Source: Oscillibacter ruminantium GH1 (GTDB lineage Bacteria > Bacillota > Clostridia > Oscillospirales > Oscillospiraceae). From it: a DNA stretch of 64,000 nucleotides. The stretch covers positions 473,209 to 537,208 of the forward strand of contig NZ_DF158896.1 in NCBI RefSeq assembly GCF_000307265.1. The letters run 5' to 3'. The notes beneath the pieces are model-generated. The model worked only from the letters and a program-made list of their open reading frames with translations. It had not been told where the DNA came from and searched no databases. Position 1 is the stretch's first letter, and every line of letters starts with the position of its first letter. This document shows positions 51,301 to 56,963 of the stretch, piece after piece. The translations under genes were made by a program, and so were the position numbers.

Positions 51301-52200
51301 TCAGCGTTCCTCCCCGTCATTTTGGCGGTGCTTCCGAAGGTTCCGGCCCGCCCGTTTCTGCTTGGTGTGATACTCTTTGCTGTGCTCGTCGTAATTGCTG
51401 CCCTTGGCCGGGTGGTTGTAGGTTCCGGCGGTCATGGTCAGGGAGTCGGTCTGAACCAGTTCATAGCTGTCAGAGCCATCCATCCGCTTTTCCATCCACC
51501 GCAGCAGGAAGGATGCAATCAGCGTCATGGTGAGATAGCCCGCCATTTCAATGGTGGCAGAGGGAAAGTAGGTGAACGTAGCCCCGGCCACCGCCTTGTG
51601 GGCGGCAAAGAAGTCGGTAAAGCCGATGATGAACATAACGGAAGTGTCTTTGATATTGATGATGAAGTTGTTGCCGATCTGAGGCATAATATTGCGCAGT
51701 GCCTGCGGCAGAATCACGCTCATCATGGTCTGGAAATGGGTCATGCCAATGGCCTTGGCCCCCTCTGTCTGGCCGGGGTCGATGGAGAGAATGCCGCCCC
51801 GGACAGATTCGGCCATGTATGCGCCGGTATTAATGGAAACCACCAGAATGGAGACCGTCCAGATGCTGTCAAACCGGACGGTGTTGTTGGTGAAGTAGGG
51901 CAGGCCGTAGAAAATGAACACCGCCTGCAAAATCATGGGCGTGCCCCGGAAAACCTCGATGTAAATCCGCAGAACCACCCGGATCACAGCCAGAAAGAAC
52001 CGCTTTGCGGGAGGGTCGGTTTTGACGTGGGGAATGGTCTGCAATATGCCGCAGGCAAGGCCGATGGCGCAGCCGATCAGGGTCGCGACGACTGCCAGCG
52101 TCAGCGTGCGGCCCATGCCGCTGAGGTAATTGACAACGCCGTATTTGGCCCAGAGGCCCGCAATGTCCTCGGCCAGCTGTGGAAATCTTGACCAGTCCAT
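51301..52200 (-). CDS. Polar amino-acid ABC transporter permease (lysine)
   Basis: 299 aa with five to six helices. The EAA coupling loop is [31 protein letters not shown]. The first 30 residues and a 50-residue polar, basic C-terminal tail (from about 250, [21 protein letters not shown]) extend beyond the usual 220 aa permease. Confidence 0.92.
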
Positions 52201-52253
52201 GAAATATTCCTCGTTCCCTCAGATTTTAGTGGATGTGCGCAGGCGGAAATGCC

Positions 52254-53150
52254 TCAGCCGCCGATGGGCTGCACCGCCACGGCCTGCGCCATGAGATCGT
52301 TGAAATCGTCGGCAGTCATGGTGGACAGGACGGAATTCAGCGCGTCCTTCAAAACGGTGTTGCCCTTCATGACGGAGATGCCGATGTTCACGTCCTCGTC
52401 GGAAACTTCAAAATTGTTGTCGGAGCCGGAGAAATCCAGCAGCTTGAAGTCTGGATAGGCCACCAGAGCGCCCTGTGCGGTGGGCATGTCGGTGCATACA
52501 AAGTCCACCGCGCCGGTCTCAAGCGCCATCAGCATGGCGGGAGCGGACTCTGCGGCGGTCTGAATCTGCGCGCCCTCAATCTGGGGCAGGCAGGTGTCGT
52601 ACCAGATGGTGCCAAGCTGAGAGGTAGCACTGCCGCCGCTCAGGTCACTAAGACCCTTGGCGGAGGCAAAAGCGCTGTCGGCCTTCGTGAGGCATATAAT
52701 GGAGGCGTATAGATAGGGTCCCGCGAAATCCACCTGCTGGGCGCGGTCGGCGGTCATGGACTGACCGGCGATAACGGCGTCCACCGTGCCGGACTGGACG
52801 GCGGGAATCAGGGAATCCCAGTCCAGACGGACGATCTCCAGCTGCCAGCCGTTGGCGTCGCACAGCTTTTGAGCCATCATCACATCGTAGCCGTTGGCAT
52901 ATTCATTGGAGTCTTTGATGGGAACGGCCCCGTTGGAATCGTCGGGCTGGGACCAGTTATAGGGTGCGTAGCCGCACTCCATGGCGACAGTCAGAACGCC
53001 ATCCTCCACACCGGAGGCAACGCCCTGAGCGGCGGAGCCGGAAGTGGATGAACCGGCGGCCGAAGACGCAGACCCGGAACCGGAGCCGCCGCAGGCGGCC
53101 AGAGACGCGGTCATGGCCAGAGCCATGGCAAGAGCTAAAAACTTCTTCAT
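52254..53150 (-). CDS. Polar amino-acid ABC transporter substrate-binding lipoprotein (lysine)
   Basis: 298 aa. Signal peptide with lipobox SLAACGGSGS, Ser/Gly-rich spacer, then a type II periplasmic-binding fold: VAMECGYAPYNWSQP, GYDVMMAQKLCDANGWQLEIVRLDWDSLIPAVQSGTVDAVIAGQSMT, and the GTIWYDTCLPQ hinge. First gene of the operon behind the lysine riboswitch, so lysine is the likely ligand. Confidence 0.93.
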   Translation of the reverse strand: MKKFLALAMALAMTASLAACGGSGSGSASSAAGSSTSGSAAQGVASGVEDGVLTVAMECGYAPYNWSQPDDSNGAVPIKDSNEYANGYDVMMAQKLCDANGWQLEIVRLDWDSLIPAVQSGTVDAVIAGQSMTADRAQQVDFAGPYLYASIICLTKADSAFASAKGLSDLSGGSATSQLGTIWYDTCLPQIEGAQIQTAAESAPAMLMALETGAVDFVCTDMPTAQGALVAYPDFKLLDFSGSDNNFEVSDEDVNIGISVMKGNTVLKDALNSVLSTMTADDFNDLMAQAVAVQPIGG

Positions 53151-53226
53151 GAAAACTGCTTCCTTTCTAATCGTATCGGTCAGCGGAGAGGACCGTTTCC
53201 CGCCGGCGCTGTTCCGGCGGAAGACG

Positions 53227-53259
53227 AAAAAAATGAACCGCTTGCGTAAAGCGGTTCAT
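53227..53259 (-). terminator. Terminator of the lysine riboswitch
   Basis: Minus-strand stem ATGAACCGCTT-TACG-CAAGCGGTTCAT (one mismatch) followed by TTTTTTT, between aptamer and the binding-protein gene. Confidence 0.88.
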
Positions 53260-53339
53260 GGAAACAGCGGAAACAACAGAACCCGTACTCCCGGTTCCAT
53301 TGTCATTATCCGTTCTCAGCCATTGATAGCGCTTCACAA

Positions 53340-53485
53340 AAAATGTGACAGTCCGGCGGGTATTCCCCGACAGCCCAGGCACTTCGGAGCAGGCAGCTCC
53401 AAAACCCTTCGGCGATGTTCCCTTTCCCGCGACGGCTGCCTGCCGTCAATCCGCGGTACTGATGAACCTCGCGCCTCTATCTGAG
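53340..53485 (-). ncRNA. Lysine riboswitch (L box)
   Basis: Minus strand shows the lysine aptamer blocks in order: GATAGAGGCGCGAGG, CATCAGTA, GGGAAAGGGAACATCGCCGAAG, GTGCCTGGGCTGTCGGGGAA and the closing GGACTGTCAC. Lysine binding should allow the downstream terminator to form and stop transporter expression. Confidence 0.95.
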
Positions 53486-53502
53486 CGATTCAATTTTTAC
53501 GT

Positions 53503-53531
53503 ATCCTACCACGGGAAATGGGTTCTGTCAA
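53503..53531 (-). promoter_or_regulatory. Promoter of the lysine transporter operon
   Basis: TTGACA at 53526-53531, 17-base spacer, TAGGAT at 53503-53508, minus strand. The remaining stretch to 53890 shows no gene. Confidence 0.8.
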
Positions 53532-53890
53532 CTCCGCTCCCAAGGTTTTTCTGCATTTTTGTGCAAAGTGCAACACTTTTTTAACGGGGGAGATGAGACA
53601 TTCAGACTCCTTTCTTTGCTGCGGAGCGATAGCTGTTCCGATTAAAAGCAGCCTTACGCCTGTGGCTTTTTTTGCATTGTGATGTTGGAGTCCTTGGCGG
53701 ATGCCAGCCCGTCTGCATCCTTCGCCGTGCGCTGCGCAAAAATGCGCGCAATCCGTTCACTCGTTTTTGGTTGGAACAGCTATATTTTTAAAAAATGCTT
53801 TTCAAAGCCGGAGGGAAATGGTATAGTGAGAACGAAAGGTAGGATCCGGCGAAGCGGTGTTTACGCTGGTCGGATGAATGGGGTACATGC

Positions 53891-54430
53891 GTGGAAGTGA
53901 TTGAACTTGGCGTTTTGAATTGGATACAGGCAAACTGCCGGACAGAGTTTTTGGACGCGGTGATGCCGGCAATCAGCGCGCTGTGCGCGCACGGAGAAAT
54001 TTGGATTTTATTGGCGGTGATTCTGCTGATGATAAAGCGGCACCGGCGGACCGGCATCGTGCTGATGCTGGCTCTGGTGCTGGACGTCCTTTCCTGCAAC
54101 GGGATTCTCAAGCCGTTGGTGGCGCGGGTGCGTCCTTGCGATGTGAATGAGGCGGTCGTGCTGCTGGTTTCCCGTCCAACGGACTGGTCGTTTCCATCCG
54201 GACACACGGCGGCGTCCTTCGCCGCGGTGGGGGCGCTGCTGGCGGAAAGAAGCGCACTCATAAAACCGGCCTTTGTTCTGGCGGTACTGATTGCCTTTTC
54301 CCGGCTATATCTGTACGTTCACTGGCCCAGCGATGTGCTGGCCGGAGCGGTTTTGGGAACTGCATTGGGATTTGCAGCCAGCTGGATCGTGAAACGGATT
54401 GAAAAGAAAACGGGACGGGTCTTGTCCTAA
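53891..54430 (+). CDS. PAP2 family phosphatase, BcrC-like
   Basis: 179 aa from a GTG; no in-frame ATG upstream. Membrane protein of five to six helices with the three PAP2 motifs: KPLVARVRPC, SFPSGHTAASF and SRLYLYVHWPSDVLAG. Probably an undecaprenyl-pyrophosphate phosphatase or lipid phosphatase acting outside the membrane. Confidence 0.9.
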   Translation: MEVIELGVLNWIQANCRTEFLDAVMPAISALCAHGEIWILLAVILLMIKRHRRTGIVLMLALVLDVLSCNGILKPLVARVRPCDVNEAVVLLVSRPTDWSFPSGHTAASFAAVGALLAERSALIKPAFVLAVLIAFSRLYLYVHWPSDVLAGAVLGTALGFAASWIVKRIEKKTGRVLS

Positions 54431-54447: not shown

Positions 54448-56436
54448 GTGAAAAACACGCGGGGCAAGCAGAAGATCCTGCTGGTGGACGGAGACGGCGA
54501 ACGCCGCCGACAGATGACCGAGGTACTGCAAAGCGTGTTCCATGTGATACCGGCATTTGACGGAGAGATGGCGGTGGATGTTTTACACAGCCGTCAGGAT
54601 TTTGCGGCGATTGTATTGCAGTGCCGCTTGTTTGACTTCAGCGGGTTTGACGTGATGGGCTTCCTTCACACGAACCGGTCACTGGTAGGCATCCCTGTGA
54701 TCGCCATGGGCGGGGCGGAGGATGAGCTGAAAGCATTGTCTTTGGGCGCGGTGGCTTTCGTCCAGCAGCCCAAGGAACCGTATCTGATCTCTTACCAAAT
54801 TCAGAATCTGGTGGGTCTTGTCTGGTCTGACCGGGACTGCGACATGCTGACCGGTGTTTTGCAATGGGAGCCGTTTTTACAAAAATGCCGGGATATTCTG
54901 GAACAGTCGGAACGGGAGAGAAGACCCGAGCAATGGGCCATGGTTTTTTTAAATGTAGACCGATTTAAGGTGTTTAACGACCTGTTCGGACGGACGATGG
55001 GGGATCAACTCCTGCGGAATCTGGCGGCGAGGCTGATCGTGATGAAGGGCGTCCATTGCGTGGGCCGTGTGGGCGGAGATCGGTTTGTGCTGCTGTGCCG
55101 CATGGAGGAGTTGGAACTGGGCCGGTTCCGCCAGCTGGGGCCGGAGCTGATGCGCCGCCTGCACCTGAAATACGGGTTGCATATCTGCTGCGGTATTTAT
55201 GAGATCGACGATCTGACGATTCCGGTGGGCGAGATCTGTGACCGCGCCCAAATCGCGCAGGAGACGATCTCCGGGCGGAGCGACCAGAGCGTGGTACTTT
55301 ATGATGAGGAACTGCGCCGGAGTCTGCGGTGGGAGCAGGAAGTGGTCTCCCAGATGTATGAGGCTCTGGAGCAGGGGCAGTTTCAGGCGTATCTCCAGCC
55401 GATTTTCAGCCTCTCCGGCAATGCGCCGGTATCGGCAGAGGCACTGGTGCGCTGGATTCATCCGGGGCGGGGGGTGATCCCGCCCAATCAATTTATCCCT
55501 ATTTTTGAGCGCAACGGGTTCATTACACGGCTGGATCAGTATATCTGGGAAAAGGTGTTTCAGTATCTGGCCGAGTTCAAGGCGGAGGGTTATCCGGATC
55601 TGACGATCACGGCCAACATGTCCAGACTTGACATCTACAATACGGATGTGTGCAACCAGCTGACGTCTTTGGCAAAGAAGTATGACGTGAGTCCCTCCGC
55701 TTTCCGCATCGAAGTGACGGAGAGCGCCTATATGGATGACCCCCAGCAGCTGCTGGATATGACGAAGCAATTAAACGCGGCGGGGTTTGCCGTGCTGATC
55801 GACGATTTTGGAAGCGGCTATTCCTCCCTGAATATGCTGATGGATATGCCGGTGTCCACGCTGAAGCTGGATATGAGCCTGGTTCGGAGTGTGGGCAGTG
55901 ACGAGCGCGCCAACTGCGTGGTCAACAGTATTCTGCGGATGGCGAAATGGCTGGAAATGGGCGTGGTGGCTGAGGGTGTGGAGACGCAGGCACAGATTGA
56001 CTATCTGCGTGCGATAGGCTGCGACCGGGTGCAGGGATACTATTTTTCCCGCCCGATTCCCAAGTGGGAGTTTTTGCGTCTTCTGGAAAACTATCGGGAT
56101 ACGTCCGTCCGCGAAAAGCCGCCGGTTTTTGACAGGAGCGCGGACACCGGCGAGGTGTGGGGCGCGGTGACGGCCTATGACCGGATGATGCGGGGACGGA
56201 TGGATGCCGCGGCGCTCTATGAGCAGTCCGGCGACATGGCGGAGGTCCTGTGTGTGAACGACTCCTATTACAGGCTGATGGAGAGCTCGCCGGAGCTTTT
56301 GTTCCGCAGCAGCCAGTTGGCCACCGGGAGGATCGCCCTCTGTTTTTACAGGCGCTGGACGCCGCCGCCCAGACCGGAGAGCGGCAGGAACTGGTGGTTC
56401 GGCGATATATGGACGTGGACCGCACGAAAAGTTTGA
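54448..56436 (+). CDS. Receiver-GGDEF-EAL protein, 5' part of a frameshifted gene
   Basis: 662 codons from a GTG. Residues 8-125 are a receiver-like domain with Gln58 where the phosphoacceptor Asp should be. Residues about 135-285 are a GGDEF domain with GGDRF, so probably inactive. Residues about 300-550 are an EAL phosphodiesterase with catalytic signatures intact (SAEALVRW, RIEVTESAYMD, IDDFGSGYSSLNM, AEGVETQAQID). Around 56326-56328 the frame slips: the true continuation (EDRPLFLQALDAAAQTGER) is in the frame of the next entry, and this frame ends in unrelated residues. It would cleave cyclic di-GMP. Confidence 0.85.
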   Translation: MKNTRGKQKILLVDGDGERRRQMTEVLQSVFHVIPAFDGEMAVDVLHSRQDFAAIVLQCRLFDFSGFDVMGFLHTNRSLVGIPVIAMGGAEDELKALSLGAVAFVQQPKEPYLISYQIQNLVGLVWSDRDCDMLTGVLQWEPFLQKCRDILEQSERERRPEQWAMVFLNVDRFKVFNDLFGRTMGDQLLRNLAARLIVMKGVHCVGRVGGDRFVLLCRMEELELGRFRQLGPELMRRLHLKYGLHICCGIYEIDDLTIPVGEICDRAQIAQETISGRSDQSVVLYDEELRRSLRWEQEVVSQMYEALEQGQFQAYLQPIFSLSGNAPVSAEALVRWIHPGRGVIPPNQFIPIFERNGFITRLDQYIWEKVFQYLAEFKAEGYPDLTITANMSRLDIYNTDVCNQLTSLAKKYDVSPSAFRIEVTESAYMDDPQQLLDMTKQLNAAGFAVLIDDFGSGYSSLNMLMDMPVSTLKLDMSLVRSVGSDERANCVVNSILRMAKWLEMGVVAEGVETQAQIDYLRAIGCDRVQGYYFSRPIPKWEFLRLLENYRDTSVREKPPVFDRSADTGEVWGAVTAYDRMMRGRMDAAALYEQSGDMAEVLCVNDSYYRLMESSPELLFRSSQLATGRIALCFYRRWTPPPRPESGRNWWFGDIWTWTARKV

Positions 56437-56963
56437 TGGTCAGCGTGTGCTATATGGGGCGAAAGGACAACAGAAAGCTGTTTTTGGCCCTGTTCCGGGA
56501 CATTTCTCTGCTGAAGCTGACGCTGTCGGCGGAGCGCATTCAGGAGACGGTATCTGCGCCCGCAGCACCACCCCGGGCGCTGGGCTGCGGCAGCTGCCGC
56601 AAGGTGCTGATTGTGGAGGACAATCAGGTGAATCGGCTGGTCCTGCGAAAAATCCTCTCGCAGGACTACAGTATTTTAGAGGCGCCCAACGGAAAAGTGG
56701 GGCTGGATATGTTACATAGCGAGGAGCATATCGCCGCAGTTCTGCTGGATATCATCATGCCCATTATGGACGGATATGAGTTTCTGCGGAAAAAGACGCA
56801 GGACCCGTCGCTGCGGGGGATTCCGGTGCTAGTGCTGTCCCAGTCGGAGAGCCGGGACAGCGAGGAAAAGACCATTCGCATGGGGGCCAGCGGATTTGTG
56901 CGCAAACCCTATGATCCGGAAAATCTGCGAAAGACGCTGGATGCACTTGTGAAAGACAATTGA
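56250..56963 (+). CDS. 3' part of the frameshifted c-di-GMP gene: PAS-like plus receiver
   Basis: Genuine coding in this frame starts about 56328, where it picks up the sequence lost by the preceding frame; independent translation could begin at the ATG at 56409. It encodes the rest of a PAS-like domain (RYMDVDRTKSLMVSVCYMG; LFRDISLLKLTLSAERIQE) and a complete receiver domain with phosphoacceptor Asp in VLLDIIMPIMDGYEF and Lys in VRKPYDP. In the intact ancestor this would be the C-terminus of one protein of about 835 aa. Confidence 0.8.
   Translation: MCERLLLQADGELAGAFVPQQPVGHREDRPLFLQALDAAAQTGERQELVVRRYMDVDRTKSLMVSVCYMGRKDNRKLFLALFRDISLLKLTLSAERIQETVSAPAAPPRALGCGSCRKVLIVEDNQVNRLVLRKILSQDYSILEAPNGKVGLDMLHSEEHIAAVLLDIIMPIMDGYEFLRKKTQDPSLRGIPVLVLSQSESRDSEEKTIRMGASGFVRKPYDPENLRKTLDALVKDN

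Follow-up and report, generated by a model that had tools for sequence, protein, structure and literature searches.

A 13-base deletion relative to orthologues and the probable separation of a predicted EAL phosphodiesterase from its C-terminal receiver in Oscillibacter ruminantium GH1

The window analyzed here is a 64,000-nucleotide stretch of the Oscillibacter ruminantium GH1 genome, and it contains, between positions 54448 and 56963 of the + strand, a signalling gene whose coding content passes from one reading frame into another. The upstream open reading frame (54448..56436, +) starts with a GTG preceded by GGGAGAG, is 662 aa long, and comprises a pseudo-receiver, a degenerate GGDEF domain, an EAL domain, and the first part of a PAS domain. 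The N-terminal receiver (54475..54774, +) matches Pfam Response_reg with an E value of 2.8e-5 and 24.7 bits, below the cut-off of 30.2, and the phosphoacceptor Asp of a phosphorylatable receiver is absent from it, its place being taken by Gln (CAG 54619-54621, +). The following GGDEF domain (54838..55107, +; Pfam GGDEF E 1.7e-13) reads GGDRF, such that the GGDEF/GGEEF signature of an active diguanylate cyclase is absent from the protein. The EAL domain (55354..56055, +) is matched far above its cut-off (Pfam EAL E 1.1e-65, 221.7 bits vs 31.3). The PAS domain has approximate limits of 56130..56512 (+), is labelled as such through remoter copies that score PAS families, and is broken by the deletion described below. 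The downstream frame is homologous over 56331..56963 (+), equal to 210 codons plus a stop, and supplies the rest of the PAS domain, a linker, and a C-terminal receiver (56604..56939, +; Pfam Response_reg E 6e-21) that possesses a phosphoacceptor Asp (GAT 56748-56750). Where the upstream frame stops, the letters TGATG (56434..56438, +) also contain an ATG in the downstream frame, an overlap that makes them a candidate reinitiation site. A neighboring open reading frame (53891..54430, +), presumably PAP2-phosphatase-like as judged by its sequence, ends 17 bases before the GTG. The preliminary description of this gene, which was prepared from the sequence, had listed a receiver, a GGDEF, and an EAL domain in the upstream product and a receiver in the downstream product, with Gln in place of Asp and a GGDRF motif; the Pfam matches and the translation agree with it on each of these points.

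The EAL domain contains the segments EALVR, EVTES, DDFGSGYSS, KLD, AEGVE, and QGYYFSRP. Of these, EALVR, EVTES, DDFG, KLD, AEGVE, and QGYYFS stand where the orthologues G123, G034, and G108 have them, and we take them to be the metal-binding and catalytic motifs of EAL phosphodiesterases. Domain score and motifs together indicate that the upstream product is probably an EAL-type c-di-GMP phosphodiesterase. The best PDB match is 4rnh (E 3.1e-62), and the structures 4rnh and 4rnf, which are labelled Motility regulator and which we take to be MorA, resemble the window gene in that GGDEF precedes EAL, as it does in DosP. However, 4rnh/4rnf and DosP carry other sensor domains and have no C-terminal receiver, which sets them apart from the family described here. 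A second resemblance is to RocR and PvrR, in which EAL is likewise joined to receiver domains. The RocR structure 3sy8 matches the EAL part. Matches to the PvrR model were obtained for G123, G034, and the window product, the last scoring 175.5 bits, far below the cut-off of 580. In RocR and PvrR the receiver lies in front of the EAL domain, whereas the Asp-bearing receiver of the window gene is C-terminal and lies behind the PAS domain.

Orthologues were sought with the C-terminal part of the gene in 86 genomes of the genus, the own genome included. With the own genome set aside, four were taken by score, namely G123 with 75% identity over the C-terminal part and G034, G109, and G108 with 54-57%; the remaining matches in the genus fall on receiver domains encoded by other genes. 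The record L036 (QKDF01000223.1, MAG SZUA-443) has a contig of the same length and gives the same match as G034, and the two were counted once. G123 is the sole close orthologue among the four, and its amino-acid identity to the window is 80% upstream and 76% downstream. The loci of G123, G034, and G108 are full-length and each consists of one uninterrupted frame, and that of G109 is cut by a contig edge, yet is open across the deletion site. A family-wide search of 400 genomes returned matches in 33, counting the own genome; those beyond the own gene are mostly confined to the receiver part and resemble paralogues, and the orthologue set was left as it stood. The orthology of G123, G034, and G108 is supported by conserved upstream neighbors, since the genes at 51301-54430 of the window, which by their sequences we take to be an ABC-transporter permease, a binding protein, and the PAP2-like gene, adjoin the gene in these genomes too. 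The upstream flank is covered in these three orthologous loci, and the PAP2-like neighbor is present in 3/3.

A comparison of the domains across the orthologues addresses which of the unusual features are old. The position of the N-terminal phosphoacceptor is Gln in the window, G123, and G034 and Arg in G108, with G109 falling short of this region, and the GGDEF motif reads GGDRF in the window and G123, GGDHF in G034, and GNDHF in G108. Because the Asp-less receiver and the degenerate GGDEF are common to the three covering orthologues, these features are no signs of decay, and the order pseudo-receiver, degenerate GGDEF, EAL, PAS, receiver looks like the old architecture of the family. The C-terminal receiver is the sole one with Asp in G123, G034, and G108, a pattern that supports the view that phospho-control would enter there. 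It is precisely this receiver that the break severs from the half bearing the usual EAL motifs, as had been described.

The presence of a PAS domain had also been proposed, and this part of the proposal stands by an indirect route. No Pfam match above cut-off was obtained for the domain itself in the window gene or its orthologues, the best being PAS_4 with an E value of 0.1 in G109. However, a search with the G123 domain retrieved four remoter copies, one of which sits in the own genome and three in further genomes of the genus. Three of these copies score over cut-off for PAS_3, PAS_8, or PAS_9, and the fourth matches PAS_3 below cut-off (E 7.6e-4). The PAS label was accepted because of the three copies that score over cut-off. 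A PDB profile search with the PAS alignment gave two matches of chance-like quality (E 0.65 and 0.97), and for the PAS-receiver part of G123 an AlphaFold model reached a mean pLDDT of 57.6, with the receiver modelled well and the first half of the PAS domain poorly.

What, then, happened at the point where the frames change? Frame 1 is open from 54448 to 56436, and a tblastn comparison with the relatives reveals that its homology ends at about residue 626 (position 56325), after which 36 out-of-frame residues follow; the other frame is homologous from about 56331, and this -1 frame continues to 56963. Homology in both frames means that the given sequence truly contains a frameshift rather than a chance overlap, as the preliminary description had read it. 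Its account of the cause fares differently. The -1 frame was said to take over without a gap, by the loss of one G from a run, and the window sequence indeed has GGG at 56326-56328. However, a DNA alignment over the junction shows 13 extra bases in 4/4 orthologues directly behind ACCG 56323-56326, such that the window is 13 bases short at this point (junction 56326..56327, no strand assigned; placement uncertain by a few bases). In the orthologues, six residues (A/G-W-L/S/C plus three) precede the D/S where the window sequence picks up again; the Trp among them is invariant in 4/4 (W93 in A1). The distant PAS copies also have residues across the missing columns, but no Trp in that column. Since residues are kept across these columns in orthologues and distant copies alike, the event is a deletion in the window lineage. 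Measured against any of the four orthologues found, the allele carries a 13-base deletion, and a gene that is open in the relatives is interrupted in the window; the case is most likely that of an ordinary truncating indel in a signalling gene. The exact junction sequence had 0 matches in viral contigs. The frame change was therefore read correctly from the raw sequence and its cause was not, for the relatives turn one missing base into thirteen.

Based on these comparisons, we propose that, in the strain or its lineage, a single gene with the order pseudo-receiver, degenerate GGDEF, EAL, PAS, receiver suffered a 13-base deletion within its PAS domain. The deletion would shift the frame and yield a 662-aa protein that retains the complete EAL domain and ends 36 residues past the junction. 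The C-terminal receiver would thereby be off the chain, and its phosphorylation would be unable to act on the EAL domain within one chain. We assign a probability of roughly 0.78 to the reading that a real deletion in this lineage has cut the predicted EAL product from control by the PAS domain and the C-terminal receiver. The deletion appears to be real rather than an assembly fault, and the EAL half would be stable but uncoupled; an EAL enzyme made without PAS and C-terminal receiver control is the most likely product to be expected from the sequence. An uncoupling of the putative EAL activity from phosphorylation, as suggested before, is plausible. The gene would then be a well-marked example of a lineage-specific indel parting a probable c-di-GMP phosphodiesterase from its receiver, and a literature search found no paper that pairs Oscillibacter with c-di-GMP.

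One alternative is that a single G was lost from the run, either by sequencing error or by slippage of the kind that underlies phase variation. The net shift of one base is what one missing base would produce, and one added base does restore the frame. However, the relatives differ by 13 bases and not by one, and the restored protein would still be four residues short, the invariant Trp among them; a fourth G would leave the other 12 missing bases unexplained. Moreover, the run consists of only three G, and such short runs are common in the window, where G or C runs number 1350 at length three, 385 at length four, and 108 at length five or above. No contingency tract in the form of a long homopolymer or short tandem repeat is present at the site, and G123, the nearest proxy for the ancestral allele, has no flanking repeat; matches at a 13-base offset near the site are at most 2 bases long in G123, which gives slippage no support. 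The loss of a single G is for these reasons highly improbable. A related proposal is that programmed -1 frameshifting reads through the break, and a run of five T at 56343-56347, just behind the junction, could perhaps allow a weak -1 slip. A -1 frameshift is normally expected at a standard slippery heptamer, and by eye the T run forms none in the upstream frame. It is also present in the intact gene of G123, the RNA behind the break folds no better than shuffled sequences (z 0.04), and a conserved programmed-frameshift signature was not found at the locus, the relatives having one continuous frame. Phase variation and programmed frameshifting are thus both unlikely, and the latter is the least credible of the explanations considered.

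A more serious alternative is that the organism does have the 13 bases and the assembly dropped them, and evidence on this point comes from the rates of change in the two halves and from the quality of the surrounding sequence. The dN/dS ratio against G123 is 0.125 upstream of the break and 0.188 behind it. Relative-rate comparisons of each half with three outgroups, six in all, gave no significant excess in either lineage, with a maximum chi-square of 2.0 that reflected more changes on the G123 side. No relaxed selection on the cut-off part was seen, either in its ratio of 0.188 or as an acceleration in the window lineage, and a recent break would look alike. The lack of visible decay in the cut-off part fits a recent deletion, and an assembly fault or continued use would account for it as well. 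In a control that set 464 kb from the own genome against 735 kb from G123, only 1/87 matched pairs (G123 frames against stretches of the own genome) was split between frames, and this pair is the window gene. The other pairs comprise 74 with a single frame over at least 80% of the query and 12 partial matches, several of them at stretch edges; the 87 pairs include antisense shadow frames and queries that fall in two stretches, and the genes truly tested are fewer than 87. This sole between-frame split indicates that the sampled assembly is not full of frameshifts, and for the same reason the split could itself be a one-off fault. A scan that also counted in-frame stops found 13 events in the own genome over 88 pairs. 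By eye, four of these belong to two real genes, three to the window gene (two in its 5' leader) and one to the second EAL gene considered below, and the remaining nine resemble shadow frames or leaders, a sorting by eye that is a weakness of this count. The reverse scan, over 90 pairs, returned 26 events in G123, among them one 155-aa frame that is split between frames; the majority of the 26 look like shadow frames. Against an assembly fault, the site is interior to a 959-kb contig, near the site G123 lacks any match of more than 2 bases at an offset of 13 bases, and loss of 13 bases from non-repetitive sequence is unusual as an assembly error. We therefore regard such a fault as unlikely, and the deletion as probably recent or, with less likelihood, as an artifact of this kind.

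It is also conceivable that both halves now work as proteins of their own, with the upstream one serving as an EAL enzyme and the receiver being translated separately through termination-reinitiation at TGATG or from an internal start. The overlap at 56434-56438 sets a downstream-frame ATG on the upstream-frame stop, an alternative GTG start lies at 56394 with AGGA four bases before it, and both halves are still conserved; a free receiver might be made through this overlap. However, the same letters encode an in-frame Leu-Met in the intact gene of G123, so they did not originate for reinitiation. The second product would furthermore begin inside the PAS core, and 0/4 orthologues are split at this place. 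A precedent does exist in Shigella flexneri, where interrupted genes for diguanylate cyclases reportedly give rise to multiple proteins, some of which still make c-di-GMP (PMC11327459). Those genes resemble the window gene in that a gene of c-di-GMP turnover is broken by mutation and its enzyme is possibly still active, and they differ in the lesion, as the Shigella mutations are nonsense mutations before the GGDEF domain whereas the window gene has a 13-base deletion behind the EAL domain that removes the receiver (PMC11327459). On balance, two working proteins would be a rather improbable outcome, and a real deletion that uncouples the EAL half remains our preferred reading.

The nearly whole EAL model is matched five times in the own genome, and a further three EAL matches are partial, with one of them below cut-off; GGDEF matches number 16. 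An EAL-only search first drew attention to a second interrupted gene among these, which lies outside the window at L208:5362-8403 (G000:C1 about 562570-565611) and encodes GGDEF and EAL domains with a weak Cache match. It lies about 36 kb downstream of the window gene and contains an in-frame TAA inside the EAL domain (EAL match C1:564820-565512). Both halves of this second gene match in one frame in G123, G099, and G016, and its orthologues have open frames of 1025 aa in G123 and 1010 aa in G099. Two interruptions among five near-whole EAL genes, small as these numbers are, are suggestive of a relaxed need for c-di-GMP breakdown. A broader and decidedly tentative hypothesis is that the lineage is shedding controlled c-di-GMP breakdown, with the window gene perhaps persisting as an unregulated EAL enzyme and a free receiver. 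This hypothesis is based on the observation that two of the five near-whole EAL genes are interrupted, while none of the 16 GGDEF matches contains an internal stop.
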